Source of the DNA: Phycisphaerae bacterium
GTDB taxonomy: Bacteria; Planctomycetota; Phycisphaerae; Phycisphaerales; SM1A02
DNA: 64,000 nucleotides
Reading direction: 5' to 3'
Assembly (NCBI GenBank): GCA_002717655.1
Contig: PBAY01000030.1
Coordinates: forward strand, 1-64,000
Part shown: positions 43,190-56,218 of the stretch, one piece after another
How positions within the stretch are numbered: position 1 is the stretch's first letter
Layout of the letters: each line of letters opens with the position of its first letter
Translations under genes and position numbers: made by a program
Notes under the pieces: model-generated
Databases searched by the model: none
The model's input: the letters and a program-made list of their open reading frames with translations, nothing else
What the model was told of the DNA's origin: nothing

Positions 43190-43326
43190 GCTGTGCTCCT
43201 GGCACCCCAGTAAGAAGATCTGAAAGATGGACTTCCCGTAGGAAACGGGGCAGGGTACGGTTCTCAGGCCGGGGGTTCAACCAGCAGCCCCAAATGGGGC
43301 TTCTTGCCCCAGTCAGGAGGGCCCAC

Positions 43327-44463
43327 GTGAAGATCTGCAGCAATCTGGGTTGGATCCGCATGCTATTGGCCGTTTGGTGCGGTCTAGCTGTCAATACAGG
43401 GTGTGAAGACAGCGATTCTGATCCTGCCAGAAAGATCTACTCGGACAAGATCAGACGTCAGATTGAACAGACATTCAGATCCAATCTCGCAATGCATCCG
43501 GCGAATACAACGACTGCGGTTGGTATCGGGCAGCCGCTGAGGCACACACCCACCAGAAGCCAGTGGGGCCTCCACAACCAGCTTCAGCCAGAAATTTCGA
43601 TTCAATGGCAACTGAATCTGGTGGACCAGGCCGAGCCCGTTCGAATTGCAATCATTGATGAAAGTTTCGATGTTGATGCGTTGGGCTTGAAACATGCCTT
43701 CGATGAGGACGCCGGTGTCAATCTACTCCACCCGGGGGCACCGCTCTGGACTGCTCATCGAAACGGATTTCATCATGGGAATCTTGTTGCTTCGATCATT
43801 GCCAATCGACCTGTAGGTGAACGATCCCCGATGGGTGTTCTCGGCCCCAGTGATGTTGAATTGATTCCCATCGTCGCTGCTGGAGGAGATGGACCGTCAT
43901 GGCGAACGCCGCGTGCAACACCTTCAATGATTCTTGAAGCACTTCGTCATGCAGTTGAGCAAGGAGCGGAGATCATCAACATCAGTGCAGGCATGGATGT
44001 CTCATCTGATGAACTGAACGAACTAGCTGCTGATCCCGTATGGAATGTGCTCGAGGAAAATGGTATTCCGGTCGTTTGCGCTGCTGGAAACGAAGGCCGG
44101 AATATCGATGAACAACCGTTGTTCCCGGCCAGCATCGATCGACCCAATGTCATCGCGGTGATGGGTGTCGGTCCGGAGGGACGACTGGCGATTCGAAGAG
44201 ACGAGGTAACCGGCAACTATCTCCCTGCCTCCAACTGGGGTCCCAATACAGTCGATTGCGCAGCGCCTGGTGAGATCGTCGAAGTGGAAGCGCGAGTAGA
44301 TCAGCCACAACTGGTTGACGGAACCTCCGCCGCCGCCGCCTTTGTTACCGCAGTCATGGCCGTGCAGCCATCACCAGGCAGACAGATCCTCCCCGAAATC
44401 AGCAGCCTTGATCCAAAGGCTGCCTTGATCAGGTTCTCCGAGCCATCTGCATCTGAAGACTGA
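43327..44463 (+). CDS. subtilisin-like (S8) lipoprotein
   Basis: GTG 43327 follows AGGAGG by six bases. The 378-residue protein has a lipobox ending at Cys26 (WCGLAVNTGC). The S8 triad residues are all present: Asp111 in RIAIIDESFD (DTG becomes DES), His150 in FHHGNLVASI (HGT becomes HGN) and Ser334 in DGTSAAAAFVTA (GTSMAAP changed). Oxyanion Asn255 is in CAAGNEG. It is probably a membrane-anchored periplasmic protease with divergent motif surroundings. It lies just upstream of the 44.5-56.2 kb envelope cluster on the same strand. Confidence 0.88.
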   Translation: MKICSNLGWIRMLLAVWCGLAVNTGCEDSDSDPARKIYSDKIRRQIEQTFRSNLAMHPANTTTAVGIGQPLRHTPTRSQWGLHNQLQPEISIQWQLNLVDQAEPVRIAIIDESFDVDALGLKHAFDEDAGVNLLHPGAPLWTAHRNGFHHGNLVASIIANRPVGERSPMGVLGPSDVELIPIVAAGGDGPSWRTPRATPSMILEALRHAVEQGAEIINISAGMDVSSDELNELAADPVWNVLEENGIPVVCAAGNEGRNIDEQPLFPASIDRPNVIAVMGVGPEGRLAIRRDEVTGNYLPASNWGPNTVDCAAPGEIVEVEARVDQPQLVDGTSAAAAFVTAVMAVQPSPGRQILPEISSLDPKAALIRFSEPSASED

Positions 44464-44581
44464 TTCGAATCCGACAGGGATTCTCAGGAAAGAAAATTTA
44501 TTCCTGCAAGAAGGATTCCGACATACGTCATCAAAGTTGACGGGATGTGTTGTCCCAGGCCCTTTGGATGAGGAGAATCTC

Positions 44582-44950
44582 ATGCCACGCTTGTCCTGTG
44601 CGCTGATACCACTGACGTTGGTCATGGTTTTGACTGGTTGTCAGTCCAATGAAGCTTTTCAGGCTTCACTTCGAAGCGCTAGTAACGATATTTCAAATGG
44701 TCGACTCGATTCGGCCCGCTTGACACTGAATGAAGCCAACTCGCTGGCTTCAGGCGCTGTTGAACATCAGAAGGTCGCCGACCTGAATGCAGTGATCAAT
44801 GGAGCTGAAGCCATGATCGATGGCCGTCCCGAAGCCGCCGCTTCGGCCTGGTCCAGTGTCAAGGACTCACGTCTACGTCAACAGATTGAACATGAAGCCG
44901 AGGTGATGGGAATCAACTTGAAATCCAACCATCAGGAGGACGCACGATGA
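44582..44950 (+). CDS. small lipoprotein, first copy of a duplicated family
   Basis: The 122-residue lipoprotein (signal ALIPLTLVMVLTGC) opens the envelope cluster. The mature part is helical and TPR-like: SNGRLDSARLTLNEANSLAS, KVADLNAVINGAEA and GRPEAAASAW. The same layout and residues recur in the lipoprotein at 55.4 kb, so the two are paralogues. GAGGAG precedes the ATG. It overlaps the next gene by four bases. No known family. Confidence 0.85.
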   Translation: MPRLSCALIPLTLVMVLTGCQSNEAFQASLRSASNDISNGRLDSARLTLNEANSLASGAVEHQKVADLNAVINGAEAMIDGRPEAAASAWSSVKDSRLRQQIEHEAEVMGINLKSNHQEDAR

Positions 44951-46038
44951 ACTTATTCAAACTCTCTCACGCACGACGTTGTGTCCCCATGCTTGTTCCG
45001 CTTGCCTTCTCGGCCGCGGCTCTTGCACAGGACGCTTCTGTCAACAGCGATATCCAAATCATTCCCGCTGGTTCAAGCGGTGTGATTCAACCCGTCAAGC
45101 CAACAACGGCATCGGCAACTTCCCGTCCATCGAAGACGCCTTCGCCATTTGATGGCTACGACTTTGAACATGTCGTCGATACGCTTCAATCCTCTGTTGA
45201 CCCTCTGGCCAATGAGATGAATGCCAGCTTCGTCGTATTCGTCGAAGAGGTGGACCGAGCCGTGGTCCTCATGGAAGAAGGCAGAACTCGTGAAGCAGTG
45301 GAGGCCAGCGTGGTCGCCATCGATGGGGTTCTTGAAGTACGTGACATCGTTCTTGAACCGATGTGGGAAGCACAGAGCGAACTGACCGCACAGATCGCCG
45401 ATGTCCGCTCACGCCTGGCACGAGCGATTGCACGAAGTGGCAATCAGCCAGCCGCATCAGAAGCAGGATTTTCACCCACTACGGAACGTCTCCTTGATGG
45501 TGTAGCCGCCAGAATCTCGGAAACAGAAGATCCAATCCGCAAGAAGCGTCTGATTGCTCATTACCGCACGATTCGAAGTCTTGCGAAGGTCAAGCATGCG
45601 GCTGAACGAATGTCTCCGGACCAGCGACGGCTGTGGACAAATATTCTGACCGTGCTCGAGCAGGCTGCGCTGGCACATCAACAGGTTCTGATGGGATCCG
45701 AAATTCTGTTTGCCCAGTTTGAATCAACTGCTGGACAGCTGAATGAATATCTCGCGCTGATGCAGACCATTGATGGAGTCAATGATCTTCTGGGAGCCGT
45801 CAATGGCGCTGGAGTCGACTCTTCAGGCATGGCTAATTTCGTACAAGGCATGCAGGGACTGCAGGAACAACTCGCCGGCTTCAACGGCATTGTCGAAGAA
45901 GCGCTCAATGAGAGCATGTACGAGCTTGAAGCCAATGTCGATGCCATCCAGCCTGTGGAAGGTGATGACATGCAGGGTGTCGTCTCTACCAGTATCGACG
46001 ATGAACTGGCTGCTCGAATCGGCCGGGTAAAGAACTGA
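44947..46038 (+). CDS. secreted helical protein of the envelope cluster
   Basis: A 363-residue exported protein (signal ending AFSAAALAQ). The mature part is strongly helical, with Ala/Glu-rich amphipathic stretches (VVFVEEVDRAVVLMEEGRTR, FSPTTERLLDGVAARISE, MQGLQEQLAGFNGIVEEA). No family was recognised. ATGA overlap with the first lipoprotein gene indicates co-translation. It separates the lipoprotein from the coiled-coil gene, an insertion that the second copy of this pair (55.4-56.2 kb) lacks. Confidence 0.82.
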   Translation: MNLFKLSHARRCVPMLVPLAFSAAALAQDASVNSDIQIIPAGSSGVIQPVKPTTASATSRPSKTPSPFDGYDFEHVVDTLQSSVDPLANEMNASFVVFVEEVDRAVVLMEEGRTREAVEASVVAIDGVLEVRDIVLEPMWEAQSELTAQIADVRSRLARAIARSGNQPAASEAGFSPTTERLLDGVAARISETEDPIRKKRLIAHYRTIRSLAKVKHAAERMSPDQRRLWTNILTVLEQAALAHQQVLMGSEILFAQFESTAGQLNEYLALMQTIDGVNDLLGAVNGAGVDSSGMANFVQGMQGLQEQLAGFNGIVEEALNESMYELEANVDAIQPVEGDDMQGVVSTSIDDELAARIGRVKN

Positions 46039-46069
46039 TCCGAACTCAACCTCCTACAGGAGTACTCAC

Positions 46070-46540
46070 ATGAAGAACCTCATGACAACATTGATTTCAA
46101 GTCTCTTTCTCGCCGTCGCGGTGGTGCCTGCACCATCCGCGACGGCGGGGGAAACAGGCCCATCTCCAGCTATCAAGGCTGAATTCAAGAAGCTTGTTTC
46201 ACAGCGGACCCGTCTGGTGCGTGATCTTGCCAAACTGGATAACAAGGCAGCTGATGCAGTTGCAGCCGGTAAGGATCCAGTCGAGATCAACGCCAGTCAG
46301 GCGGCAGCTCAGGATGAACTGGATCTGATCCAGCTCCGACTCGAATCCATGGCGATTCGACATGATCTCGCGCTACCGGCAGTTGTAGCACCTGGGGATG
46401 TCGACATCGAAGACAAGGGTACGGAAGCAAGAGCAAGAGCCATGTTCCGAGCTGGTGAAGAGCGTACCAACCGAATCGTTGCAAGACGAACGATGCGACT
46501 GCTTGCTCGTCTCGACTTCTCATCGATCACTTCCCATTAG
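46070..46540 (+). CDS. secreted coiled-coil protein, first copy of a duplicated family
   Basis: The 156-residue protein has a signal peptide (LFLAVAVVPAPSATA) and a helical mature part with KDPVEINASQAAAQDELDL and IQLRLESMAIR. The protein at 55.8 kb has the same block (EDPVELYAEQTGLQEQIDI, IQMRLESLAMR) and the same length, so they are paralogues. AGGAG precedes the ATG. Family unknown; it may be a periplasmic adaptor. Confidence 0.83.
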   Translation: MKNLMTTLISSLFLAVAVVPAPSATAGETGPSPAIKAEFKKLVSQRTRLVRDLAKLDNKAADAVAAGKDPVEINASQAAAQDELDLIQLRLESMAIRHDLALPAVVAPGDVDIEDKGTEARARAMFRAGEERTNRIVARRTMRLLARLDFSSITSH

Positions 46541-46545
46541 GAGAC

Positions 46546-46962
46546 ATGCAGATGCTCTGGCCCTGGTTTGAAGCTGGTGGAATAATGATGTGGCCTCTAC
46601 TGGTCTGTTCAATCCTGCTGACCGGTGTACTGATTGAACGACTCTGGACGATTGGCATACTCCATCTGCTGATCGGATGGAAGATGACTTCTGAGCAACT
46701 CAAGGCGCATCAACGTGTCCTGCCTTTCTTTGCTGAAGTTCCACCTGCCCTCGGGTTGCTTGGAACAGTCCTTGGTGTCGTTCAGAGCTTTCATCTGCTG
46801 GACGGAAAAATCAATGCTGATGCAATTGGAAGCGGACTGGCAGTCGCCTGTACCACGACCATCTATGGGATCGGTATTGCAGTGGTCGCAGCAGTTGCAG
46901 GACATGTACTGAACTGGCTGACAAATCAGGAAGCACCTGCTGCTGGAGTGGTCGCCTCATGA
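46546..46962 (+). CDS. MotA/TolQ/ExbB-type proton channel protein (short)
   Basis: A 138-residue membrane protein with three helices at about residues 12-35, 62-85 and 98-125. It contains the TolQ/ExbB signatures VPPALGLLGTVLGVVQSFHL and AVACTTTIYGIGIAVVA. In known systems this subunit forms a pentamer conducting protons around a TolR/ExbD dimer. The length is shorter than classical TolQ, with a reduced cytoplasmic loop. It overlaps the ExbD-like gene by four bases. Confidence 0.9.
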   Translation: MQMLWPWFEAGGIMMWPLLVCSILLTGVLIERLWTIGILHLLIGWKMTSEQLKAHQRVLPFFAEVPPALGLLGTVLGVVQSFHLLDGKINADAIGSGLAVACTTTIYGIGIAVVAAVAGHVLNWLTNQEAPAAGVVAS

Positions 46963-47321
46963 TCTGCCGTGGTTTCGTTGATCTCCTGTTCATTCTTCTG
47001 TGCAGCACCATTGTTCTGCTGGCTCAATCGGTTCCGCTTCGAGGGCTGTTGGCAGAACCAGCCGAAGCTGGAGTTGGTGGAACACGAGCACTGCACGGAG
47101 ATGAGCTTGCATTGATATCCGTCACTGAAACAGGTGTGGCTTCTGATGCCGGGACTGGCGAAACATTGGCAGAGCTTGAGTGGCCCCAGAAGCCTGGCAC
47201 ACTCATCATCGTTCCTTCCAGCGAGGCCATCACGCATCACCGGATCATGCAGGTCTGGAGAGAAGCACAGAAGGCAGGATTTGAAGTTGAACTTGGCGTA
47301 CAGCCTGAAGGGAAATCCTGA
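46959..47321 (+). CDS. ExbD/TolR-like protein
   Basis: A 120-residue protein with one N-terminal membrane helix (GFVDLLFILLCSTIVLLAQ). Asp8 sits at the start of the helix, where ExbD and TolR carry the proton-binding Asp. The periplasmic part ends with a TolR-like fold (GTLIIVPSSEAITHHRIMQV, REAQKAGFEVELGV). Placement directly after the ExbB-like gene supports the call. It overlaps the next gene by one base. Confidence 0.85.
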   Translation: MICRGFVDLLFILLCSTIVLLAQSVPLRGLLAEPAEAGVGGTRALHGDELALISVTETGVASDAGTGETLAELEWPQKPGTLIIVPSSEAITHHRIMQVWREAQKAGFEVELGVQPEGKS

Positions 47322-48118
47322 TGTCTAGAACAGTCATGATCATTGGACTCTTTGTTGCTTCGCTGGCTCACTGGATGTTCCTGTCACCATCCATCAAACA
47401 TGTTTCACAGGAGAATCCGATTGAATCTGCTGCTGTAGCCATGCGGGAGATTGCCAGAGAGATGCTGCCCACACCTGAGCGTGAGGAGGCAGCGGAAACT
47501 CCCCTGAAAGATCCCGTTCAGGCTCAACCAACGCCTCCTCCTGTTGAACCTCCTGCTGAACAGCCTGCTGTGGAGCCGGAAAGGATGGTTGAAAAACCTG
47601 TTCCTCCAGCTCCGAATCTGAGCAGAACAGCTGAATCACGTCGCGCTTCACTGGATCGCCGTGGTGATTTCAGTGGCGACCGTAATGGAAATCAGCGGCC
47701 AGTTCTCAGGATCGACTGGGGACAACCTGATCAGGCCATGTCTATCGTCAAGGCTGGAGACATGCGTCTGGTCATGCTTACCTCTTCTGGTGGTATCGCA
47801 GGTGAGATCCAACCGACTGAACATGGCTGGACGAGAATTGACAGTCAGGCGCCGGATCTTTCCGGCTACTCGAATCGTGTGAGAATCGTCGATTCCACAA
47901 CAGCATTTTCCCAGGCATCATCCTTGTGCAAAAACGGCGAACGTCTTGCCGTTCTGCTCCCACTGACTCTAGAACACAAATTACGGACCCAACAAATTCG
48001 AGTTGCCACTGAAGCTGGCGTCGAATCATCAGCAATTCTGGCTTTCTATGGCCGGTTTCGAATTGATGGTGGATCGGTCGCCTTTGATATCAGTGGATAT
48101 GAACGGAGAACATCATGA
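47321..48118 (+). CDS. TonB-like proline-rich periplasmic-spanning protein
   Basis: A 265-residue protein anchored by one N-terminal helix (VMIIGLFVASLAHWMFL), with Ser14 and His17 recalling the SxxxH motif of TonB. Residues 60-95 form a Pro/Glu-rich linker (PTPPPVEPPAEQPAVEPER) able to cross the periplasm. The C-terminal 150 residues make a beta-rich domain (VLRIDWGQPDQAMSIVKAG, LVMLTSSGGIAGE) that does not resemble TonB or TolA C-termini. The ExbB-ExbD-TonB order suggests the mechanical output arm of the motor, with a novel target-binding domain. Confidence 0.72.
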   Translation: MSRTVMIIGLFVASLAHWMFLSPSIKHVSQENPIESAAVAMREIAREMLPTPEREEAAETPLKDPVQAQPTPPPVEPPAEQPAVEPERMVEKPVPPAPNLSRTAESRRASLDRRGDFSGDRNGNQRPVLRIDWGQPDQAMSIVKAGDMRLVMLTSSGGIAGEIQPTEHGWTRIDSQAPDLSGYSNRVRIVDSTTAFSQASSLCKNGERLAVLLPLTLEHKLRTQQIRVATEAGVESSAILAFYGRFRIDGGSVAFDISGYERRTS

Positions 48119-48609
48119 AAAGATTCATTCTTGGAACACTGGCTGGAATCCTGATCGTCGCCGCTATTGTCACGATGGTGCCGGAACGCGCCCATTCACT
48201 GATTGATCAGGCGGGTGACGTTCGGAACATGCTGAACGATGTCGTCGCACGACTTGAGCAGATGGAGGAAAGAAACTCAAGGGAAGTGATCCAGATCGAT
48301 GAGCTTGATCCTCGAGATGATGATCAGCATGCGGAGTCAGAGACCATTGAAATCGTGCTTGAAGAGCAACGTGAATCGATCTCTGATCCGGTAGCGGAAT
48401 TCAATGAGCCAAGAGAGACTCCTGCTCCTGAGACGGTCGTCATTCCCGAATCCGTGGAACGGCAAACCGTCAATTTCGACAATCTGGCAGCCGGTCTGGC
48501 ACGCGTGAGCGGGGCACTTGAACGACTGAATCGAACCATGAAACCAGGAACCAGGTCAAAGCCTCGATCAGAACCAGACGCATCGAATATCGATGGAAAT
48601 GCCTCATGA
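48115..48609 (+). CDS. single-pass membrane protein with acidic coiled-coil tail
   Basis: The 164-residue protein has one N-terminal helix (FILGTLAGILIVAAIVTMV), then coiled coil (RNMLNDVVARLEQMEERN) and an acidic Pro-rich middle, and a final helix (LAAGLARVSGALERLNR). No family was recognised. It overlaps the TonB-like gene by four bases. Its own stop overlaps the ATG of a short open frame at 48606 that leads into the sigma-factor gene. Confidence 0.75.
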   Translation: MKRFILGTLAGILIVAAIVTMVPERAHSLIDQAGDVRNMLNDVVARLEQMEERNSREVIQIDELDPRDDDQHAESETIEIVLEEQRESISDPVAEFNEPRETPAPETVVIPESVERQTVNFDNLAAGLARVSGALERLNRTMKPGTRSKPRSEPDASNIDGNAS

Positions 48610-48730
48610 AAAACGGACTTGAGCTCGATCACGCCGGCATTCATACCCAAACCGGTCCTCCTGCAATTCGGTGCCAGAGCATAGACTGGTATTCGTTCAC
48701 AGGCAGTGCTGTGTCGGGAGATGATGTCGC

Positions 48731-49552
48731 GTGGTCGCAGATCAAGTCCGCCAACTCTGGGATGTCGCTCAAGCCGCATGGCCTGGTGTGTCATGGCCTT
48801 TGGAGATGTTTCAATCGCATCTGGGACGGGATGTGCCAAGCCACGTCGAAGATCTCTATGTCGCAGGTGCAGCAGGGCATCGAATGTCCGAGGCCTGGGC
48901 TGCAATCGATGAGGCGTATCGAATCATGGTGATTCGGCGACTGCAACGATCAGCAAGAGCTGATCTGGAAGCAGAAGATCTCTGGTCGGAATCTCTTGCT
49001 CGAATGATGCGTGATGATCCTGAATCAGGAACCAATGAATCAGGTGAACCCCTGATGCACATTGTGAGATACCGTGGCATCACTCGACTTCCATGGCATT
49101 TTCTGGCTGCCGCACGAACCATCGCCATTGATCGCCATCGCCGTCAGTCACGGAGGCCACAGGAAGTGGCTTCCGAAGCTGTGCTGGAACTTGCCAAGGG
49201 AGATGATCCTGCAGTGATTGCGGGTCAGCATGAGCTAGCGGACACGCTTGCCAATGCTGTTGTGCAGGCATTCCGAGGATTAAAAGCAGAGCACCAGTTT
49301 CTTCTTGCAGCCATCTATCGTGATGGCAACGCCAAGGCGGATGCTGGTCGGATCGCGGGCCTTTCGCCCTGGCAGACTTCAAGAGAGCTTCGCAAGGCGG
49401 AGGATCAGTTGCGTCTCCAGGTGCAACATGCGATTCCCGGGCAGTGGAGTCCGGAAACAAAGGCAGCATGGGATGAAGGGTGGCGTCACTGCTGGAAGCA
49501 ACTGGCTCACCTTCATTCAGGCGATGATTCTCTTTCGGAAGGCGCAGCATGA
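48731..49552 (+). CDS. ECF-like sigma-70 family protein of the envelope cluster
   Basis: A 273-residue protein starting at GTG 48731. Residues 40-150 contain a region-2-like helical block (ADLEAEDLWSESLARM, FLAAARTIAIDRHRRQSRRP). Residues 170-230 have a region-4-like HTH (FRGLKAEHQFLLAAIYRDGN, AGLSPWQTSRELRKAEDQLR). Sequences are divergent from classical ECF factors but like the sigma-70 relatives seen in myxobacteria and planctomycetes. The next gene, overlapping by four bases, encodes a membrane protein of anti-sigma type, so it likely controls this cluster. Confidence 0.75.
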   Translation: MVADQVRQLWDVAQAAWPGVSWPLEMFQSHLGRDVPSHVEDLYVAGAAGHRMSEAWAAIDEAYRIMVIRRLQRSARADLEAEDLWSESLARMMRDDPESGTNESGEPLMHIVRYRGITRLPWHFLAAARTIAIDRHRRQSRRPQEVASEAVLELAKGDDPAVIAGQHELADTLANAVVQAFRGLKAEHQFLLAAIYRDGNAKADAGRIAGLSPWQTSRELRKAEDQLRLQVQHAIPGQWSPETKAAWDEGWRHCWKQLAHLHSGDDSLSEGAA

Positions 49553-50088
49553 ATACCGCAGCACCTCTTGATCAACTTGGTAACGAACAACTTGCTGAAG
49601 CATTGCAGGCTGCAATGAAAGAACATGCAGGAAGTGACTGGAGCGAGCTCAATCCCGAATCGATCGCCGCGCTGGCACAGGGTCGAGGTGATGAGCTGCC
49701 TGCTCAGGAACGTACTGATCTACTGCGACGAATCGCCTCCGACCCCGATCTGGGGATCTTGATCCGGGAACTTCAGGAAGATCTTAGAGATTCACTCGCC
49801 CGTCCGCGTTTCATGTCGACACGATCCATCATCCGTACGGCATGGGCCGCCTGTCTCATTGGCCTGCTGACCCTTACGTCGATTCGCCTCACCCGGGGAA
49901 CTGACACACGATCCATTGAAGTACTGGATGCTGAATCAGGGGGTCCTGAATTCCTCAATGATCTCGGCAACGCCGGCACTCAGGTTCCATCAGCCCTTTT
50001 CTATGATCCGATTTTCGTCGGCCTGTTCCTGCTGGTCGTCATACTCGGGGCTTGTTCCTTCTGGCCACAGCGGAGTTCTCGTACATGA
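49549..50088 (+). CDS. membrane protein, probable anti-sigma factor
   Basis: A 179-residue protein. The cytoplasmic N-terminal 95 residues (LDQLGNEQLAEALQAAMKEH, ESIAALAQGRGDELPAQER, RRIASDPDLGILIRELQED) resemble the N-terminal helices of anti-sigma factors, but no zinc-binding HxxxCxxC is present. Two membrane helices follow, at about residues 103-118 and 152-172. Four-base overlaps on both sides tie it to the sigma-like gene and to the next secreted protein. The anti-sigma role is inferred from context. Confidence 0.68.
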   Translation: MNTAAPLDQLGNEQLAEALQAAMKEHAGSDWSELNPESIAALAQGRGDELPAQERTDLLRRIASDPDLGILIRELQEDLRDSLARPRFMSTRSIIRTAWAACLIGLLTLTSIRLTRGTDTRSIEVLDAESGGPEFLNDLGNAGTQVPSALFYDPIFVGLFLLVVILGACSFWPQRSSRT

Positions 50089-51056
50089 TGAATGTTCTGT
50101 TCGGCAGCCTCACCGTCTTCTGGCTGTTGATCGGTTCAGCTTCCGCTGAGGTCGCTGGTGATCAGAAGCCATCAATAGCTGCCGAAATCGCTGATCTTCT
50201 GGCTGATGGAACTTCCGTTGAAGCCATTACAAATTTGATTGACACCTGTGGTCAGCCCCAGATCATCATCATCCCGCCACGACCGGGTGAACCGCTGCAG
50301 GAAACGGTTGTTTCACGCGTTGGTGATTCACTTGCAAGTCTTGGAATCAACAGTCTCGATGGTGAACGGGTGAATGCGGAGCAGGAAAGGGAGGCGGATC
50401 TCGCCTATTCCCAATCCAATGATGCTGCTGCCGCTACACGAATTCTTCTGGCACGCGCGGGTGACTATGAATTGAACTGGTCAATGGATGTCGCCATGGA
50501 AGGTCCCATGGAGATCTATGGTGTCGAGACCTGGGAAGCAAAAGTCGATCTTCATGCAACACTTGTTGATCTTGTCACTGGAGAGGAAATCGAGTCGATC
50601 ACTGCGACACAGGCTGCTCGACAACAGACACGTGAACGTGCATTGGATCAAGCAATCGAGACTGTTGTTGGCGTACTGGCTCAAGAGGCTGCATTACCGA
50701 TACTTTCCAGCTGGTATGGAATGGCATCAGGAGACGGATTTGTTCAAGTCCGTATCTCAGCCAGTTCAGCTGGTGTGGATCAAATTCAGCAACAACTGGC
50801 CGGGGTGGAAGGTGTGCAATCTGTGATGAGAAGTCTGCCCGCTGAGCCGCCTCGCCTGATGGTTCATGGCAGCTTGAATGCGCAGGAGTTGAGCATTCGA
50901 ATCGGTCAGGGAGAACCGATTTCCTGTAGAGAACTGCTCATTGTTTCGGTAACTCGTTCGTCATGGATACTCTGGGCTGGAATCGGCTCCTTGGCCATTC
51001 TGGTCATTGCCAGTCGGCTTGTCAGTCGAAATCGACGTCCCTCTGCCGCCCTATGA
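50085..51056 (+). CDS. secreted FlgT/LPP20-like protein with C-terminal membrane anchor
   Basis: From ATG 50085 the protein has 323 residues. It has a signal peptide (GSLTVFWLLIGSASA), a beta/alpha middle typical of proteins that assemble outer-membrane rings or lipoprotein complexes (ARAGDYELNWSMDVAMEG, KVDLHATLVDLVTGEEIES, RERALDQAIETVVGVLA) and a C-terminal membrane helix (WILWAGIGSLAILVIA). The closest resemblance I see is to FlgT-type N-terminal domains; this is a judgement by eye. It starts in an overlap with the anti-sigma-like gene. Confidence 0.7.
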   Translation: MMNVLFGSLTVFWLLIGSASAEVAGDQKPSIAAEIADLLADGTSVEAITNLIDTCGQPQIIIIPPRPGEPLQETVVSRVGDSLASLGINSLDGERVNAEQEREADLAYSQSNDAAAATRILLARAGDYELNWSMDVAMEGPMEIYGVETWEAKVDLHATLVDLVTGEEIESITATQAARQQTRERALDQAIETVVGVLAQEAALPILSSWYGMASGDGFVQVRISASSAGVDQIQQQLAGVEGVQSVMRSLPAEPPRLMVHGSLNAQELSIRIGQGEPISCRELLIVSVTRSSWILWAGIGSLAILVIASRLVSRNRRPSAAL

Positions 51057-51193
51057 CGCGAATAAACAGGATGTCAGCCGCAGATTCGCCTGCTTTGGAC
51101 ACATCCGACCCCTGTCGAGGACAATACAGGACCAGTATCTGGCTCGCCCATACTGGCTCAATTGACTGCAAGAAACCCGCCGACAAGCGTCTC

Positions 51194-51207
51194 CGTTCAT
51201 ATGAACG
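51194..51207. promoter_or_regulatory. 14-bp perfect palindrome upstream of the YcfL-like gene
   Basis: CGTTCATATGAACG is a perfect palindrome in the 196-base gap before the next gene block. It lies 46 bases before the start codon and could be an operator or a short hairpin. Confidence 0.35.
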
Positions 51208-51252
51208 CTTCAGGCACTGATTCAGGAATGAAGCTTTCTCAGGAGTTTGAAC

Positions 51253-51654
51253 ATGTACAGAATTCTTCCTCTCATGACACTCGTCTGCCTGATGCTCACT
51301 GCTTGCGGCAGTGTCAACACAGTCACCACGAACGATCCGCGCCGAACAAATGTTGACTATTCCAAGATCGACATGAATCCCGTATTGAAAAGCCAGATTC
51401 GTGTTGAAGGTGTGATGGCACGTGACATCAATGGCGTTCTTCAAGGTCAGGTCACCCTGCAGAACCGATCATCATCCGCAAAGGATATTCAAACACGATT
51501 TGAATGGTTCTCTGCTGAAGGCATGCAGGTAGATGAATCGAGTACCGTCTGGAACACCTATACCATTCAAGCCGGCGAAATCCGTTCCATAACTGGGACG
51601 GCAGGGAGTGCCGTGGCAAAAGACTTCAGATTTGGCATCAAACCGCTCCGCTAA
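51253..51654 (+). CDS. YcfL-like (DUF1425) lipoprotein
   Basis: ATG 51253 follows AGGAG. The 133-residue lipoprotein (signal PLMTLVCLMLTAC) resembles E. coli YcfL: a beta-rich domain with IRVEGVMARDINGVLQGQVT, the Asn/Arg turn LQNRSSSAKDIQTRFEWF and TVWNTYTIQAGEIRSITG. In E. coli, ycfL is next to lpoB, the outer-membrane activator of PBP1B. Here the next gene likewise encodes an LpoB/CsgG-like protein, which supports the assignment. Confidence 0.8.
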   Translation: MYRILPLMTLVCLMLTACGSVNTVTTNDPRRTNVDYSKIDMNPVLKSQIRVEGVMARDINGVLQGQVTLQNRSSSAKDIQTRFEWFSAEGMQVDESSTVWNTYTIQAGEIRSITGTAGSAVAKDFRFGIKPLR

Positions 51655-51684
51655 TACGCATGTAGAGGTGAAGGAGTGGCTCTG

Positions 51685-53871
51685 ATGTCTCCACGACCCG
51701 CGATACTCGCACTTGTGATGATGGCGCCTCTCGCGATCATTCCGGCCACCATGACACATGCTGATCTGGGCATCGAGTTCATGGTGCCGGTTCTGGCAGA
51801 TGACGACGAACAACAGGATGCACTTCAGGTACAACAGCCTGAAGAGGTTCGATCCAGTCGACCTGATGGATTTGTTCATGATGTAACAGTTGCACGCACT
51901 CCGCAGGATGCAATCAATTCCGTCGCCCAGCGACTTCGAAATGAAGGTGATGATGGTGCTTCCTGGATCGAAATCAACGGTCAGATGGCCGTCGTCAGTT
52001 CTGGTTCAGGATCATGGGATACGAGCATTGCCAATCCAAACCTGCAGTTGATCGAACAACGTCTTGCGTGGATGCAGGCAGCAATGGGGGCCAAGTCCGC
52101 CATGGCACGCTTCATCCAAGGCGCATCGGTGGCCAGTAAGGAACGAATCAATGAAGAACTGTCGACTCGAGACACCGACACACTGAGCCGGATCAATTCC
52201 CGGCGTGAACTTCAGGAAGACATCACTTCGAGTACCAGCGCATTTCTTCGTGGCGCGATGCTGTATGAACTTGTTGAGGACACTGAAGCTGGATCAGTCT
52301 CAGTCACACTTGTTTCAACACCGGGCAGTCAACAACTTCTGCAGGTGCGTGGAAGTGGTGTAAGCGGTGCCAGAGATCTCAAGCAGGGGCTCCAGGCCTT
52401 GACCGCAGAAATACGTGCCGGTGTCGTTCCACCGACCGGTGGTCGATTTCTTGAGAACCCCTCAACTGGTGCATGGACCTGGGTGGCATTCGGTGCCGAA
52501 CCTGTTGACCCAACAAGAACAGGTCGCGTTCGCCAACTTGCTGTTGAGAACGCGCAACGTACCGCTCGACTCCGTGCTGAAAGAGCGATGTTGGCATTGC
52601 TGCGAGGTGAATCGCTCGTTGAAGAAGATGTGCTGGATGCCCGTTATCAGGAGATACTCTCTCAGACCGATGATCTCCTGACGCGTACCAGTGATCTTGA
52701 TGTTGAAAAACTGTCTGATCAGGCCACCAGTTCCACACGCAGCGCCGTGGCCTCTGGTCAACTTCCGGCAGGGCTTCGCAGCTTCAAGATGCAAGGTGCC
52801 GCGGGCATCTGGCAGTACTGCGTGTTGACCTATGAACCGCAATCCTGGCAGACCCCGACAGATCCAACTGAATCTGCCCCTCAACAAGTTCCTGATCAAC
52901 AGAAGCCTGATGCTGATGTATTCAAGGTTTCATCTGATTCGGAAGGTATTCAGATTCTGGCTGCCGGTACCGGCACAACACGTGAAGCAGCTATCAAAAG
53001 TGCGCTGCTTGAAGCCATTTCCATGGTGAATGGGGCGCTTGTCGAGGGACAGACAGAGACAAGGCAGATTTATGAAACCGCCATCAAGGAATTTGAAGGC
53101 CGCCTTGGCCGGAACGTGTCCTCGCAATCAATCTCCAGTGAATCGATTGAGACGACGTCAAATGGTCTGGTAACTCGGTATCGAATTCTTGATGAAGGCG
53201 AACTTCCACCAGAGGCGCCTGAACGTGCTGCCGGTGACAACTTTCAGGTTTCCATTCAGGCTGAAGTCGCCGTATTCGATCCTGACAATCCCCGCCCCAC
53301 TGGACGCCCGACCATAGCCGTACTGCCGATGCAGATCGTGAGTTTCATGCAACCTCCGGATCGGAATCCCATGACTCCATCCGAGGTCCGCACCTATTTG
53401 ACCGACAACATCACGCGTGATCTTGTACGGCGCAATGAATTCAAGGTTCTTGACGAACGATATGTTCAGGAGCTCGAGGCGCAACGGAAGCAGATCATGG
53501 ATCAGGTACGCGAGGGTAATGCGGACATGCGTGAAGTCCTCAAGCTTGGACAGGAATTGACGGCTGATTACCTCATCATGGGAACTGTTGAAAGTCTGAA
53601 CAACCAGAAATGGCGGCAGCTGGTGAAGATCCGGGACAGCTATGAAACCCGTGAAATGCTTAATGTCAATATCCAGATGCAGTTGGTCAATGTCTCAACT
53701 GGTGAAATCGTCTGGACCGACCATTACCGCAACTCATGGGACACGATCGAACTTGCCAGTCGCGACAAGGAAGATCGAGCGCTTCCGTCTGTGATTTTCG
53801 GTATGAACGTCGCAAGTGAAGCGATACAGAACTCCCTTCAGGACTATCTGGATTCCCGCAAGAAGGAATGA
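51685..53871 (+). CDS. large periplasmic FlgT/CsgG/LpoB-like protein
   Basis: A 728-residue exported protein (signal ILALVMMAPLAIIPATMTHA). Residues 50-390 are a long N-terminal region of two helical-beta units. Residues about 415-530 match a FlgT-N-type domain (GIQILAAGTGTTREAAIKSA, LLEAISMVNGALVEG). The last 190 residues look like a CsgG/LpoB-type domain (RPTIAVLPMQIVSF, TRDLVRRNEFKVLDERYVQE, LGQELTADYLIMGTVESLN). ATG 51685 is chosen for AAGGAG at nine bases. It follows the YcfL-like gene by 30 bases and probably forms an outer-membrane-associated assembly. Confidence 0.8.
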   Translation: MSPRPAILALVMMAPLAIIPATMTHADLGIEFMVPVLADDDEQQDALQVQQPEEVRSSRPDGFVHDVTVARTPQDAINSVAQRLRNEGDDGASWIEINGQMAVVSSGSGSWDTSIANPNLQLIEQRLAWMQAAMGAKSAMARFIQGASVASKERINEELSTRDTDTLSRINSRRELQEDITSSTSAFLRGAMLYELVEDTEAGSVSVTLVSTPGSQQLLQVRGSGVSGARDLKQGLQALTAEIRAGVVPPTGGRFLENPSTGAWTWVAFGAEPVDPTRTGRVRQLAVENAQRTARLRAERAMLALLRGESLVEEDVLDARYQEILSQTDDLLTRTSDLDVEKLSDQATSSTRSAVASGQLPAGLRSFKMQGAAGIWQYCVLTYEPQSWQTPTDPTESAPQQVPDQQKPDADVFKVSSDSEGIQILAAGTGTTREAAIKSALLEAISMVNGALVEGQTETRQIYETAIKEFEGRLGRNVSSQSISSESIETTSNGLVTRYRILDEGELPPEAPERAAGDNFQVSIQAEVAVFDPDNPRPTGRPTIAVLPMQIVSFMQPPDRNPMTPSEVRTYLTDNITRDLVRRNEFKVLDERYVQELEAQRKQIMDQVREGNADMREVLKLGQELTADYLIMGTVESLNNQKWRQLVKIRDSYETREMLNVNIQMQLVNVSTGEIVWTDHYRNSWDTIELASRDKEDRALPSVIFGMNVASEAIQNSLQDYLDSRKKE

Positions 53872-53873
53872 AC

Positions 53874-55250
53874 ATGATCTCCTCCATTATTCTGGCGATT
53901 CTGGCGATGTTTCAGCCCGAGGCAATTGATCGGGCTGTTGAACGCGCTTCGTCGAGCAGTTTGATCGGCTCAAGTGGAGCCTTGATCGAGGAAGAGGAAG
54001 CCATCGCATGGGCATCTGAACCAATCTCCAATCAGACCGTTACTCAGAAAGGCTGGGAGTCGCGCCTGCGATTGAAGGCTGAACGGAAACTTGTGACTCA
54101 GGTTGCCATGAAACTCGCGATGTCCATGCCGGGCCATACCATCGAAGAAGAACAGGTTCTGGAGAGGATTTCACCGACGATTCAACAGCGTGGGGGCATG
54201 AGTCTTGATCGTCGGTGGGTTGCACTGAGCTGCCCGATCCCTTCACGGGTTCACCGTGTCAAGATCAAAGGCGATCAGGCGGTTCAAGATCAGGAGAAGC
54301 TGACACTCGCCGTTCTTCCGTTCAAGGAAATCGGGCCTGATCCCCAGACTGGAATTGGGAAACTGGCCGCGGCTTCAATGCTCTCAGCCATTGATTCTCC
54401 AAATATCACACTTATTGAACGTGATGAGATTGCTCGAATTCTGGATGCCCGTGAGTTTTCCAAGCTCGATGTAACTGAAGATGGAACAGGAATGTTCATC
54501 GGAAGACTGATGAATGCTCGTTATCTCCTGATGGGAACAATCGGCAGAGGTGGGCCAGGCGAATGGATTCTGACCGGGCGAATCATCGATACCACCACTG
54601 GTGAAATCGTCGAAGGGCATCGCGCTGCTATTTCAATCTTCAGTTCAGGTCAGTCGATGGTGGATGGAACTCGCGCCTTGGCCCTTGAAATGGGTCTACG
54701 ATCTCCAGAAGGTGAAAAGCCCGAACCGGTTGAACTGCATGAACCAGCCGAATCCGGAACCGTGGAGTCAATGGTGCGAGCCGTGCCTCGAGGTGGACCA
54801 AATCCATTGACACTTCAAATGAATCCTGTTCAGGCAGCCTATGAAGAAGGTCAGTCGGTCCACTTTCAGATACACACCAAGAAAGCCGGCTATCTGACGA
54901 TGCTGATGATCGGTGCTGATGGGAAGATCGTGACACTCGTGCCCAATCCAGAAGCCCGCTCGGTCTATCTGGAAGCAGGGGAATCCTTGAGTATTCCGAC
55001 ACTCGCGATGAGGTTCTACTTTCTCATCCAACCGCCACATGGTCTGGCAAGAATCAAGGCCTTCATCACTGATGAGCCATTGGTGATTCCAGGATCATTT
55101 GATGATCATCGAAAGGATCTCCTTCAGTTAGTCCGGACCGGACGAATCGGCGGAGAGGGCGACAGCCCGCTGAACACTTCCGAGTGGACCAGTGCGGAAA
55201 TCCAGTTTCTGACCCGCGAAGCGGCCCCTGAGAAGCCAGTAAACCGTTGA
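53874..55250 (+). CDS. secreted FlgO/CsgG-like protein with DUF4384-like domain
   Basis: From ATG 53874 (AAGGA six bases upstream) the protein has 458 residues. A short signal (ISSIILAILAMFQPEA) precedes a CsgG/FlgO-like domain at about residues 130-275 (LTLAVLPFKEIGPDPQTGIG, NITLIERDEIARILDAREFS, ARYLLMGTIGRGGPGEWILT). Residues about 305-430 match DUF4384 (LQMNPVQAAYEEGQSVHFQ, KKAGYLTMLMIGADGKIVTL, VPNPEARSVYLEAGESLSI). This pairing suggests an outer-membrane receptor or scaffold. It starts two bases after the preceding gene's stop. Confidence 0.82.
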   Translation: MISSIILAILAMFQPEAIDRAVERASSSSLIGSSGALIEEEEAIAWASEPISNQTVTQKGWESRLRLKAERKLVTQVAMKLAMSMPGHTIEEEQVLERISPTIQQRGGMSLDRRWVALSCPIPSRVHRVKIKGDQAVQDQEKLTLAVLPFKEIGPDPQTGIGKLAAASMLSAIDSPNITLIERDEIARILDAREFSKLDVTEDGTGMFIGRLMNARYLLMGTIGRGGPGEWILTGRIIDTTTGEIVEGHRAAISIFSSGQSMVDGTRALALEMGLRSPEGEKPEPVELHEPAESGTVESMVRAVPRGGPNPLTLQMNPVQAAYEEGQSVHFQIHTKKAGYLTMLMIGADGKIVTLVPNPEARSVYLEAGESLSIPTLAMRFYFLIQPPHGLARIKAFITDEPLVIPGSFDDHRKDLLQLVRTGRIGGEGDSPLNTSEWTSAEIQFLTREAAPEKPVNR

Positions 55251-55364
55251 TTCATTGATTTCGTGAATCAGTCGCAAGTGCGAAGAGATCCTGCGTCTCC
55301 ATGAATACAGAAGGAATTCCTGGCACTTGAGGTGTCCGGGAACCGCCTCAACGGAGACCTCATC

Positions 55365-55772
55365 ATGCTTCACCATTGGATCGTTCTGACCCTGTGTGCC
55401 GCTGGCACGCTATGTGGATGCGCAAGTGTTACGCAAGTAGAAGCGGGAAGACACGATCGCTTCCGGAATGCATTGGTTGAATCCTGTCGCTCCATCAAGG
55501 CCAGTGATTTCCAGGCTGCCCGTGGGCACCTCCGTCAGGCCAGTACGCTGGCGAATGGACATGAGCAGACGGCGAAGGTCGCCGACCTGCGACTGGTCTG
55601 CCATGGCGCCGAAGCACTCAATGCGGGACGCCCCAGAGAGGCGGCCAGTTCATGGCTTGCCATTCAGGATCGCTCATTGAAGAACCAGCTGGTAGGACTG
55701 GCACATGAAGAAGGCATCGACCTGATGATGCTTACGTCCAATCGTCAGGCTGGCGAAGGAGTCAACCCATGA
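55365..55772 (+). CDS. small lipoprotein, second copy of the duplicated family
   Basis: The 135-residue lipoprotein (signal IVLTLCAAGTLCGC) is a paralogue of the one at 44.6 kb. The shared pattern is an ARxxLxxAxxLA helix, a KVADL segment, a GAEA/GRPxEAAxSW block and EEGI(D/N)L near the end. GGAG precedes the ATG by eight bases. It overlaps the coiled-coil gene by four bases, so the second copy of the pair is directly coupled. It closes the cluster. Confidence 0.85.
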   Translation: MLHHWIVLTLCAAGTLCGCASVTQVEAGRHDRFRNALVESCRSIKASDFQAARGHLRQASTLANGHEQTAKVADLRLVCHGAEALNAGRPREAASSWLAIQDRSLKNQLVGLAHEEGIDLMMLTSNRQAGEGVNP

Positions 55773-56218
55773 AACATCGCAGATGCCAGATTCTGATTTC
55801 AGTTGTGACACTGCTTGCCAGTGGATCACTGGCCTGGAGCCTTGCCCCAATTCCCTCAAGAGCCCAGTCCCTGCTTCGTGAAAGAGATCAGCTGCAACAG
55901 GATCTACTGAGAGCTGACCAGGCCGCTTCCGAAGCGATGCTTCGTGGTGAAGATCCCGTCGAACTTTATGCCGAACAGACCGGTTTGCAGGAACAGATTG
56001 ACATCATCCAGATGCGACTGGAGTCACTGGCGATGCGACTGGAATTCGACATTCCCGCTCTGCCCGAAAGTATTCGTGAATTCGATCCCAGTCAGGTTCT
56101 TGATGAAAGTGTTGGGATCGGTCGAAGAAGAGCCGAAGCGGCAATGGCACATCAATGCGAAGTCGCCTGTGGCGCCATTGTGAGTGACATGAATTTCACA
56201 TCGTTTCTGGCCTTCTAG
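55769..56218 (+). CDS. secreted coiled-coil protein, second copy of the duplicated family
   Basis: The 149-residue exported protein is the paralogue of the one at 46.1 kb. It has a signal peptide (VVTLLASGSLAWSLA), a coiled coil (LLRERDQLQQDLLRADQAA) and the shared EDPVELYAEQ ... IQMRLESLAMR block. It converges with the cobalamin adenosyltransferase gene with a four-base overlap. No known family. Confidence 0.83.
   Translation: MKHRRCQILISVVTLLASGSLAWSLAPIPSRAQSLLRERDQLQQDLLRADQAASEAMLRGEDPVELYAEQTGLQEQIDIIQMRLESLAMRLEFDIPALPESIREFDPSQVLDESVGIGRRRAEAAMAHQCEVACGAIVSDMNFTSFLAF

Follow-up and report, generated by a model that had tools for sequence, protein, structure and literature searches.

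Only a few kinds of machine are known that carry energy from the inner to the outer membrane. In the Ton system, Ser16 and His20 of TonB contact ExbB, as seen by cryo-EM (PMC12215075), and the position of the TonB D-box has been described (PMC10907165); flagellar H-rings contain FlgO, FlgP, and FlgT (PMC6375700). Relatives of proteins from such systems are encoded together in a cluster of fifteen genes (labelled g01 to g15 in order, 44582-56218; Table 1) within the window, i.e., the whole 64,000-nucleotide stretch analysed here, which lies on contig C30 of a Phycisphaerae bacterium genome of 3.07 Mb in 55 contigs (genome label G000). Judged from its sequence, and with a probability of about 0.6, the cluster specifies a dedicated Ton/Tol-type force-transmitting motor with its own extracytoplasmic function (ECF) sigma factor regulon, which would pull on a novel envelope complex. 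No description of this gene set was found in the open-access literature. The initial annotation had proposed a proton-driven trans-envelope system of unusual composition, a proposal that is supported by synteny, by conserved motor residues, and by a common predicted sigma-dependent promoter; this promoter ties the parts together even where their genes are unlinked.

The widely conserved system consists, by sequence comparison, of g01 to g06 plus a transmembrane (TM) protein in the g07 slot, to which the sigma factor, the anti-sigma-like protein and g10 have been added in some lineages. When 251 sampled genomes of the order Phycisphaerales were searched with a g02 profile, 14 of them, in three families, had relatives, with 36-51% identity outside the genus; in sampled genomes outside the order there was none, the only two matches among 294 both falling inside the order. 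Around these g02 relatives the genes g01 to g06 keep the same order and are contiguous except at contig breaks (in two genomes the module is divided between contig ends), and the g07 slot usually holds a short single-TM protein. In a separate search, the C-terminal domain of g06 was found in 12 of the 251 genomes, all within the 14 that carry g02 (Fisher 9e-19); the two that lack it are exactly those in which only g01-g02-g03 occur, without motor genes (L063, L064). At least five module genomes have no sigma factor (L055, L056, L059, L061, and L062), and g11 to g15 were seen in the window's arrangement only in this genus. In one genome (G229) the motor module is present twice, as diverged copies on separate contigs (L057, L060). 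In two distant genomes, C14 caspase-domain proteins adjoin the module (L036:4529-6460, L077:240-2465); an FGE-sulfatase domain is present in one of them and WD40 repeats in the other. The N-terminus of g02 resembles a signal peptide by eye, although it did not pass the scan; sequence comparison of g02 with the PDB gave matches at chance level only, and its structure model is a low-confidence helical bundle whose matches are all generic.

The motor is represented by g04, g05, and g06. By its sequence, g04 is a clear MotA/TolQ/ExbB homologue (PF01618, 60.9 bits against a cut-off of 22.9) whose profile matches the structures of TolQ, PomA, and ExbB; hydropathy indicates three hydrophobic segments, with a small cytoplasmic domain and a short loop between TM1 and TM2, the family shares an invariant GLLGT motif, and there is a weak match to the exbB2 model of 138 positions. 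Each of g05, g06, and g07 has one N-terminal TM segment. In g05, Asp8 within this helix (FVDLLFILL in the window) is invariant in 15 of 15 family members, 12 of which match Pfam ExbD (best 1e-6); the g05 profile aligns, weakly, with TolR and ExbD chains over their length (E 0.13-0.94), TolR scoring above ExbD. In g06, His17 of the TM helix is invariant in all 14 relatives and is the predicted counterpart of TonB His20; a Ser four residues before it, corresponding to Ser16 of TonB, is present in most distant relatives. After the helix, where TonB has its D-box, comes a short strand-like segment, a resemblance seen by eye, and then a Pro-rich linker, which is extended in most relatives. For the final 140 residues of g06 a mixed alpha/beta domain is confidently predicted (predicted local distance difference test, pLDDT, about 80-93); it has no Pfam match. 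Comparison of the g06 profile with the PDB gave low-complexity, Pro-rich alignments as top matches, and TonB at 6e-4; since the model that was searched included the disordered arm, a new fold is not claimed for the C-terminal domain. A further ExbB-ExbD pair occurs elsewhere in this genome (L003, contig C51), adjoining a 319-residue protein that has an N-terminal TM segment and, in place of TonB_C, a weak match to VWA.

Alternatively, these components could form a TonB system specialised in powering a TonB-dependent receptor for nutrients, the remaining genes being accessory; the cluster does encode ExbB, ExbD, and a helix like that of TonB, including the essential His, and short versions of ExbB are known from other Ton systems. 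This interpretation is unlikely: Pfam TonB_C was absent from all 14 g06 homologues at E values up to 0.1 in this sequence test, and Pfam recognised no receptor in the window's block (the neighbours of the other loci were scanned in part).

Further evidence for a dedicated motor with its own regulon comes from g08 and its predicted promoters. The sigma-like protein g08 scores 26.7 bits against the sigma70-ECF model, below the cut-off of 42.9, and has strong orthologues in ten module-carrying genomes; it is followed by g09, with its two hydrophobic segments. In the aligned intergenic gaps of four congeners, GCAAG and CGTC blocks with equal spacing precede g01, g11, and g14; the motif occurs 15 times with spacer N15 in the four congener clusters, compared to 0-3 times (mean 0.7) with other spacers. 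The pattern, derived in the genus, was then tested on loci not used to derive it. It was found before g01, exactly or with one change, in L036, L053, L054, L043, L057, and L060, and was missing there in the five sigma-less loci listed above and in L063 and L064; a separate search placed g08 orthologues in the motif-positive genomes and in G202, where the region upstream of g01 is off the contig, and in none of the motif-negative ones. The motif stands at g01 in nine of nine sigma-carrying genomes vs. none of the seven without sigma; random 250-base stretches reach its match score in at most 2.8% of cases (at most 0.5% outside sigma-carrying loci).

The predicted promoter extends to genes for outer-membrane accessory proteins. 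It precedes the LPP20 and CsgG-DUF4384 genes that adjoin the module in L036 and L054; in two genomes where g08-g09-g10 lie on another contig, it is still found at the module's g01, at the CsgG-DUF4384 gene, and just before g09. The possible internal site in the window also encodes conserved residues; in L110 and L111, g09 is preceded by an equivalent site at a distance of about 35-60 bases. At a second locus of this genome, on contig C32, TGCAAC-N15-CGTCT precedes an LpoB-YcfL fusion gene, with CGCAAG-N15-CGTC and TGCAAC-N15-CGTC at the corresponding place in two congeners. No predicted promoter was found before g08 itself. Four of the 18 genome-wide motif matches fall in the 12-kb cluster; since the motif is not enriched genome-wide over a reversed control (18 vs. 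28 matches in this genome), a large regulon is not claimed. Together, there is good correlational evidence that g08 would drive the module and the outer-membrane accessory genes, and the core and these accessory proteins (YcfL, LpoB/LPP20, and CsgG-DUF4384) probably constitute one regulon.

The proximity of a sigma factor to an ExbBD motor recalls FecI-FecR-FecA-like surface signalling, in which the ExbBD/arm complex would pass an envelope signal to g09, which then frees g08. The sigma and anti-sigma-like genes lie inside the motor cluster in the genus and in L036, L053, L058, and L060, a matching promoter lies ahead of the cluster, and g09 is a membrane protein. This alternative is nevertheless improbable: Pfam finds no FecR-type domain in g09, and signalling to g09 cannot be the core's basic job because the core occurs without the sigma/anti-sigma pair in at least the five genomes named above.

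Among the accessory proteins of the proposed motor system, g12 has Pfam matches to LpoB (2e-11; PF13036, 44.4 bits against a cut-off of 22.3), CsgG (5.7e-9), FlgT_M (1e-5), and LPP20 (0.004); g13 contains DUF4384 (9e-17), and a distant relative of g10 in L110 matches FlgT_N (PF16548, 1.1e-6). DUF4384 is a rare domain here, exceeding its cut-off in 8 of 251 order genomes, four of which are module genomes (Fisher 4e-4). Module genomes with DUF4384 have a single copy, which adjoins the module in three lineages; in a fourth genome (G171) the contigs are too short to show whether it does. The S8 protease gene adjoins g01 in three congeners and in L057; in L036, L054, and L112 the S8 domain forms part of a fusion with CsgG-DUF4384, and a separate LPP20 protein is found among the neighbours elsewhere. 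Since the YcfL-LpoB cluster also occurs widely in the order in genomes that lack the module, it was probably recruited. The fusion of LpoB to YcfL (DUF1425) on contig C32 (L116:6023-6988, outside the window) lies ahead of a further LpoB-type gene. Between g11 and g12, congeners carry an additional LpoB gene (L024:8695-9324, L025:11072-11641, L026:9513-10133) that the window lacks at 51655-51675; in L026, a gene for a 505-residue lipoprotein also precedes g11. In L025 (13849-14949), the g13 open reading frame (ORF) is short by about the first 90 residues, by start choice, frameshift, or real loss.

The LpoB domains in g12 and at the second locus, with YcfL alongside, could suggest an Lpo-type outer-membrane activator of peptidoglycan synthesis working with the motor; in Escherichia coli, ycfL is located beside lpoB. 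The enzyme to be activated is what argues against it: a search for GT51, the mark of class A penicillin-binding proteins (PBPs), gave a match in 10 of 14 control genomes, but none in this 91%-complete genome nor in 24 of 25 others tested, and class A PBPs are reportedly missing from PVC (Planctomycetes-Verrucomicrobia-Chlamydiae) bacteria (PMC8406291). The sole GT51 match among the 26 tested was in G551, the genome of L036; this genome may be only distantly related to the others, or contaminated in part. A peptidoglycan-synthase role of the LpoB-like proteins is unlikely because this genome has no GT51 match, and the activator interpretation as a whole is highly improbable; since YcfL-LpoB clusters are nevertheless common in the order, LpoB probably has another role there. 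Least probable of all is a relation to flagella, in which the cluster would supply components of the outer-membrane H-ring (FlgO/FlgP/FlgT) and an additional stator: the predicted regulon repeatedly features LPP20, FlgT_N, FlgT_M, and FlgO-type domains, and the genome has a MotA-like gene, but the motor is ExbBD/TonB-like rather than MotAB, Pfam recognised no flagellar genes in the block, and the module is present in only 12 of 251 order genomes.

Several observations weigh against a force-transmitting motor with its own regulon. Proton use and force transmission are deduced from homology, and the TM1 Trp of ExbB that contacts TonB in E. coli has no match at equivalent spacing in g04 (read against PMC12215075). 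The window's g05 alone falls below Pfam detection, with no Pfam match; the Pro-rich arm of g06 is short in the congener L026, and comparison of the g06 model, disordered arm included, with the PDB gave nothing convincing (best Foldseek E 0.15, best VIA-align 2 Z 2.3). The match between sigma factor and promoter is a correlation in which congeners are not independent; counted by lineage, the motif stands at 6/6 vs. 0/5 (p 0.002). Near the five sigma-less loci, no LPP20/CsgG-type gene was recognised, so that neither the sigma factor nor the LPP20/CsgG-type genes are essential to the core.

In the window, all 15 cluster ORFs are present on the + strand. The junctions from g01 to g15 measure -4, 31, 5, -4, -1, -4, 121, -4, -4, 190, 21, -4, 111, and -4 bases; the single direction and the mostly tight spacing (overlaps or gaps below 35 bases) of the initial annotation are confirmed, with 11 of 14 junctions at 31 bases or less and larger gaps before g08 (121), g11 (190), and g14 (111), the last two of which contain predicted promoters. 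At least three or four transcription units are predicted rather than one; this partly matches what the initial annotation would have counted as a refutation, transcripts of several unrelated units, yet the predicted units appear co-regulated. All fifteen genes are collinear in three congeners with roughly 35-85% identity, flanked by the S8 protease gene and a cobalamin adenosyltransferase gene; g02 is among the most conserved (76-82%) and g10 the least (35-44%). Two additional congeners, G002 and G004, have no match to g10 or g12, and as lone markers these two gave only genus-limited or mixed matches. The expectation that the set stays together is therefore borne out for all fifteen genes in the three congeners and for g01 to g06 across families, but the fifteen are not one conserved unit; conversely, the system probably includes more than fifteen genes (the upstream S8 protease gene, the second LpoB-YcfL locus, and the extra LpoB gene of congeners). 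A hydropathy and lipobox scan of g01 to g15 for signal peptides, lipoboxes, and TM segments confirmed such features in most products; g02 and g13 did not pass it, and g08 is soluble. In line with the duplicated pairs of the initial annotation, g01/g14 and g03/g15 are homologous.

Table 1. Coordinates of genes and predicted promoters in and next to the g01-g15 cluster (positions in the window).
Feature	Coordinates	Strand	Basis or remark
S8 subtilase-like protease gene adjoining g01	43294..44463	+	Pfam S8 1.2e-19; probably part of the system
Predicted ECF promoter TGCAAG-N15-CGTC before g01	44506..44529	+	Kept in 3 congeners and in 5/5 testable distant g08 genomes
g01, small lipoprotein (C20), core, paralogue of g14	44582..44950	+	Lipobox scan, homology
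g02, probably secreted all-helical protein, core marker	44947..46038	+	Profile search; low-confidence helical model
g03, small secreted helical protein, core, paralogue of g15	46070..46540	+	Signal-like N-terminus
g04, short ExbB/TolQ-type proton channel subunit	46546..46962	+	Pfam MotA_ExbB 1.4e-16
g05, ExbD/TolR-type subunit, invariant membrane Asp8	46959..47321	+	Family alignment, Pfam of relatives
g06, TonB-like arm, invariant His17	47321..48118	+	Alignment, structure model
g07, single-TM protein	48115..48609	+	Hydropathy; short TM proteins in same slot elsewhere
g08, ECF-like sigma factor	48731..49552	+	TIGR02937 3.6e-6, below cut-off
Possible internal promoter before g09/g10, within 3' end of g08	49392..49415	+	Motif match
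g09, anti-sigma-like membrane protein, two hydrophobic segments	49549..50088	+	Directly after g08
g10, envelope protein, C-terminal TM	50085..51056	+	Signal-like N-terminus
Predicted ECF promoter TGCAAG-N15-CGTC before g11	51168..51191	+	Kept in 3 congeners
g11, YcfL-like (DUF1425) lipoprotein	51247..51654	+	Pfam 3e-17; lipobox C20
g12, exported protein, LPP20-like and LpoB/CsgG/FlgT_M-like domains	51676..53871	+	Pfam; signal-like N-terminus
g13, CsgG-like and DUF4384 protein	53868..55250	+	Pfam
Predicted ECF promoter CGCAAG-N15-CGTCT before g14	55274..55297	+	Kept in 3 congeners (one with spacer 16)
g14, lipoprotein (LCGC), paralogue of g01	55365..55772	+	Lipobox scan, homology
g15, secreted helical protein, paralogue of g03	55769..56218	+	Signal-like N-terminus, homology

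In the proposed mechanism, g04 and g05 would use the proton gradient to move g06, which would carry force across the periplasm, its C-terminal domain gripping a periplasmic or outer-membrane load. The first candidate for this load is the lipoprotein/helical set g01-g02-g03, because no other set accompanies the motor in every case, and this one is also found where the motor is missing. The g08/g09 pair would activate both the motor operon and the genes for LPP20/CsgG/LpoB/FlgT-type outer-membrane proteins (g10 to g13 and the second LpoB-YcfL locus); these proteins, added in some lineages, probably build or dock a complex at the outer membrane. The purpose is probably the maintenance or remodelling of an outer-membrane or surface structure, which is the weakest step of the scheme. 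A more far-reaching and rather doubtful possibility is a further class of machine beside Ton, Tol, and Mot, in which an ExbBD-type motor with a new arm-end domain would work an LPP20/FlgT/CsgG/LpoB-type ring or disc at the outer membrane, in one regulon under its own sigma factor. If the proposed mechanism is true, it assigns a testable role beyond peptidoglycan synthesis and flagella to LpoB, YcfL, CsgG, and LPP20 proteins, which are widespread and poorly understood and occur here in bacteria without the usual LpoB target; the predicted promoter makes the regulon testable by ordinary RNA-seq.

Compared to known systems, the motor itself is of a known kind (Ton/Tol); what differs is the end domain of the arm, the constant presence of g01-g03 as partners, the set of accessory proteins, and the sigma regulon dedicated to the system. 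With the Ton system the cluster shares ExbB and ExbD homologues, a TM helix with an invariant His (outside the genus mostly with the Ser four residues before it), a strand-like segment after the TM helix, and a Pro-rich arm; it differs in the very short cytoplasmic loop of its ExbB, in the 140-residue C-terminal domain of g06 without a TonB_C match, in encoding the motor together with g01-g03, and, in part of the lineages, in having its own ECF sigma factor. With Tol-Pal it shares a predicted proton-driven inner-membrane motor acting across the envelope, and among solved structures the g05 profile scores higher with TolR than with ExbD, both weakly; yet Pfam recognised no TolB, Pal/OmpA domain, or TolA among the fifteen proteins. 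The LPP20, FlgT_N, FlgT_M/CsgG, and FlgO-type domains in g10, g12, g13, or their relatives recall the FlgO/FlgP/FlgT H-ring of Vibrio, but the cluster lies outside a flagellar context and its partner motor is of the ExbBD type. Finally, as in the YcfL-LpoB pair of E. coli, DUF1425 adjoins LpoB-type proteins and is even fused to one at the second locus of this genome; in contrast to E. coli, no class A PBP was found here for them to activate, and they are predicted to be under the control of a cluster-encoded sigma factor.

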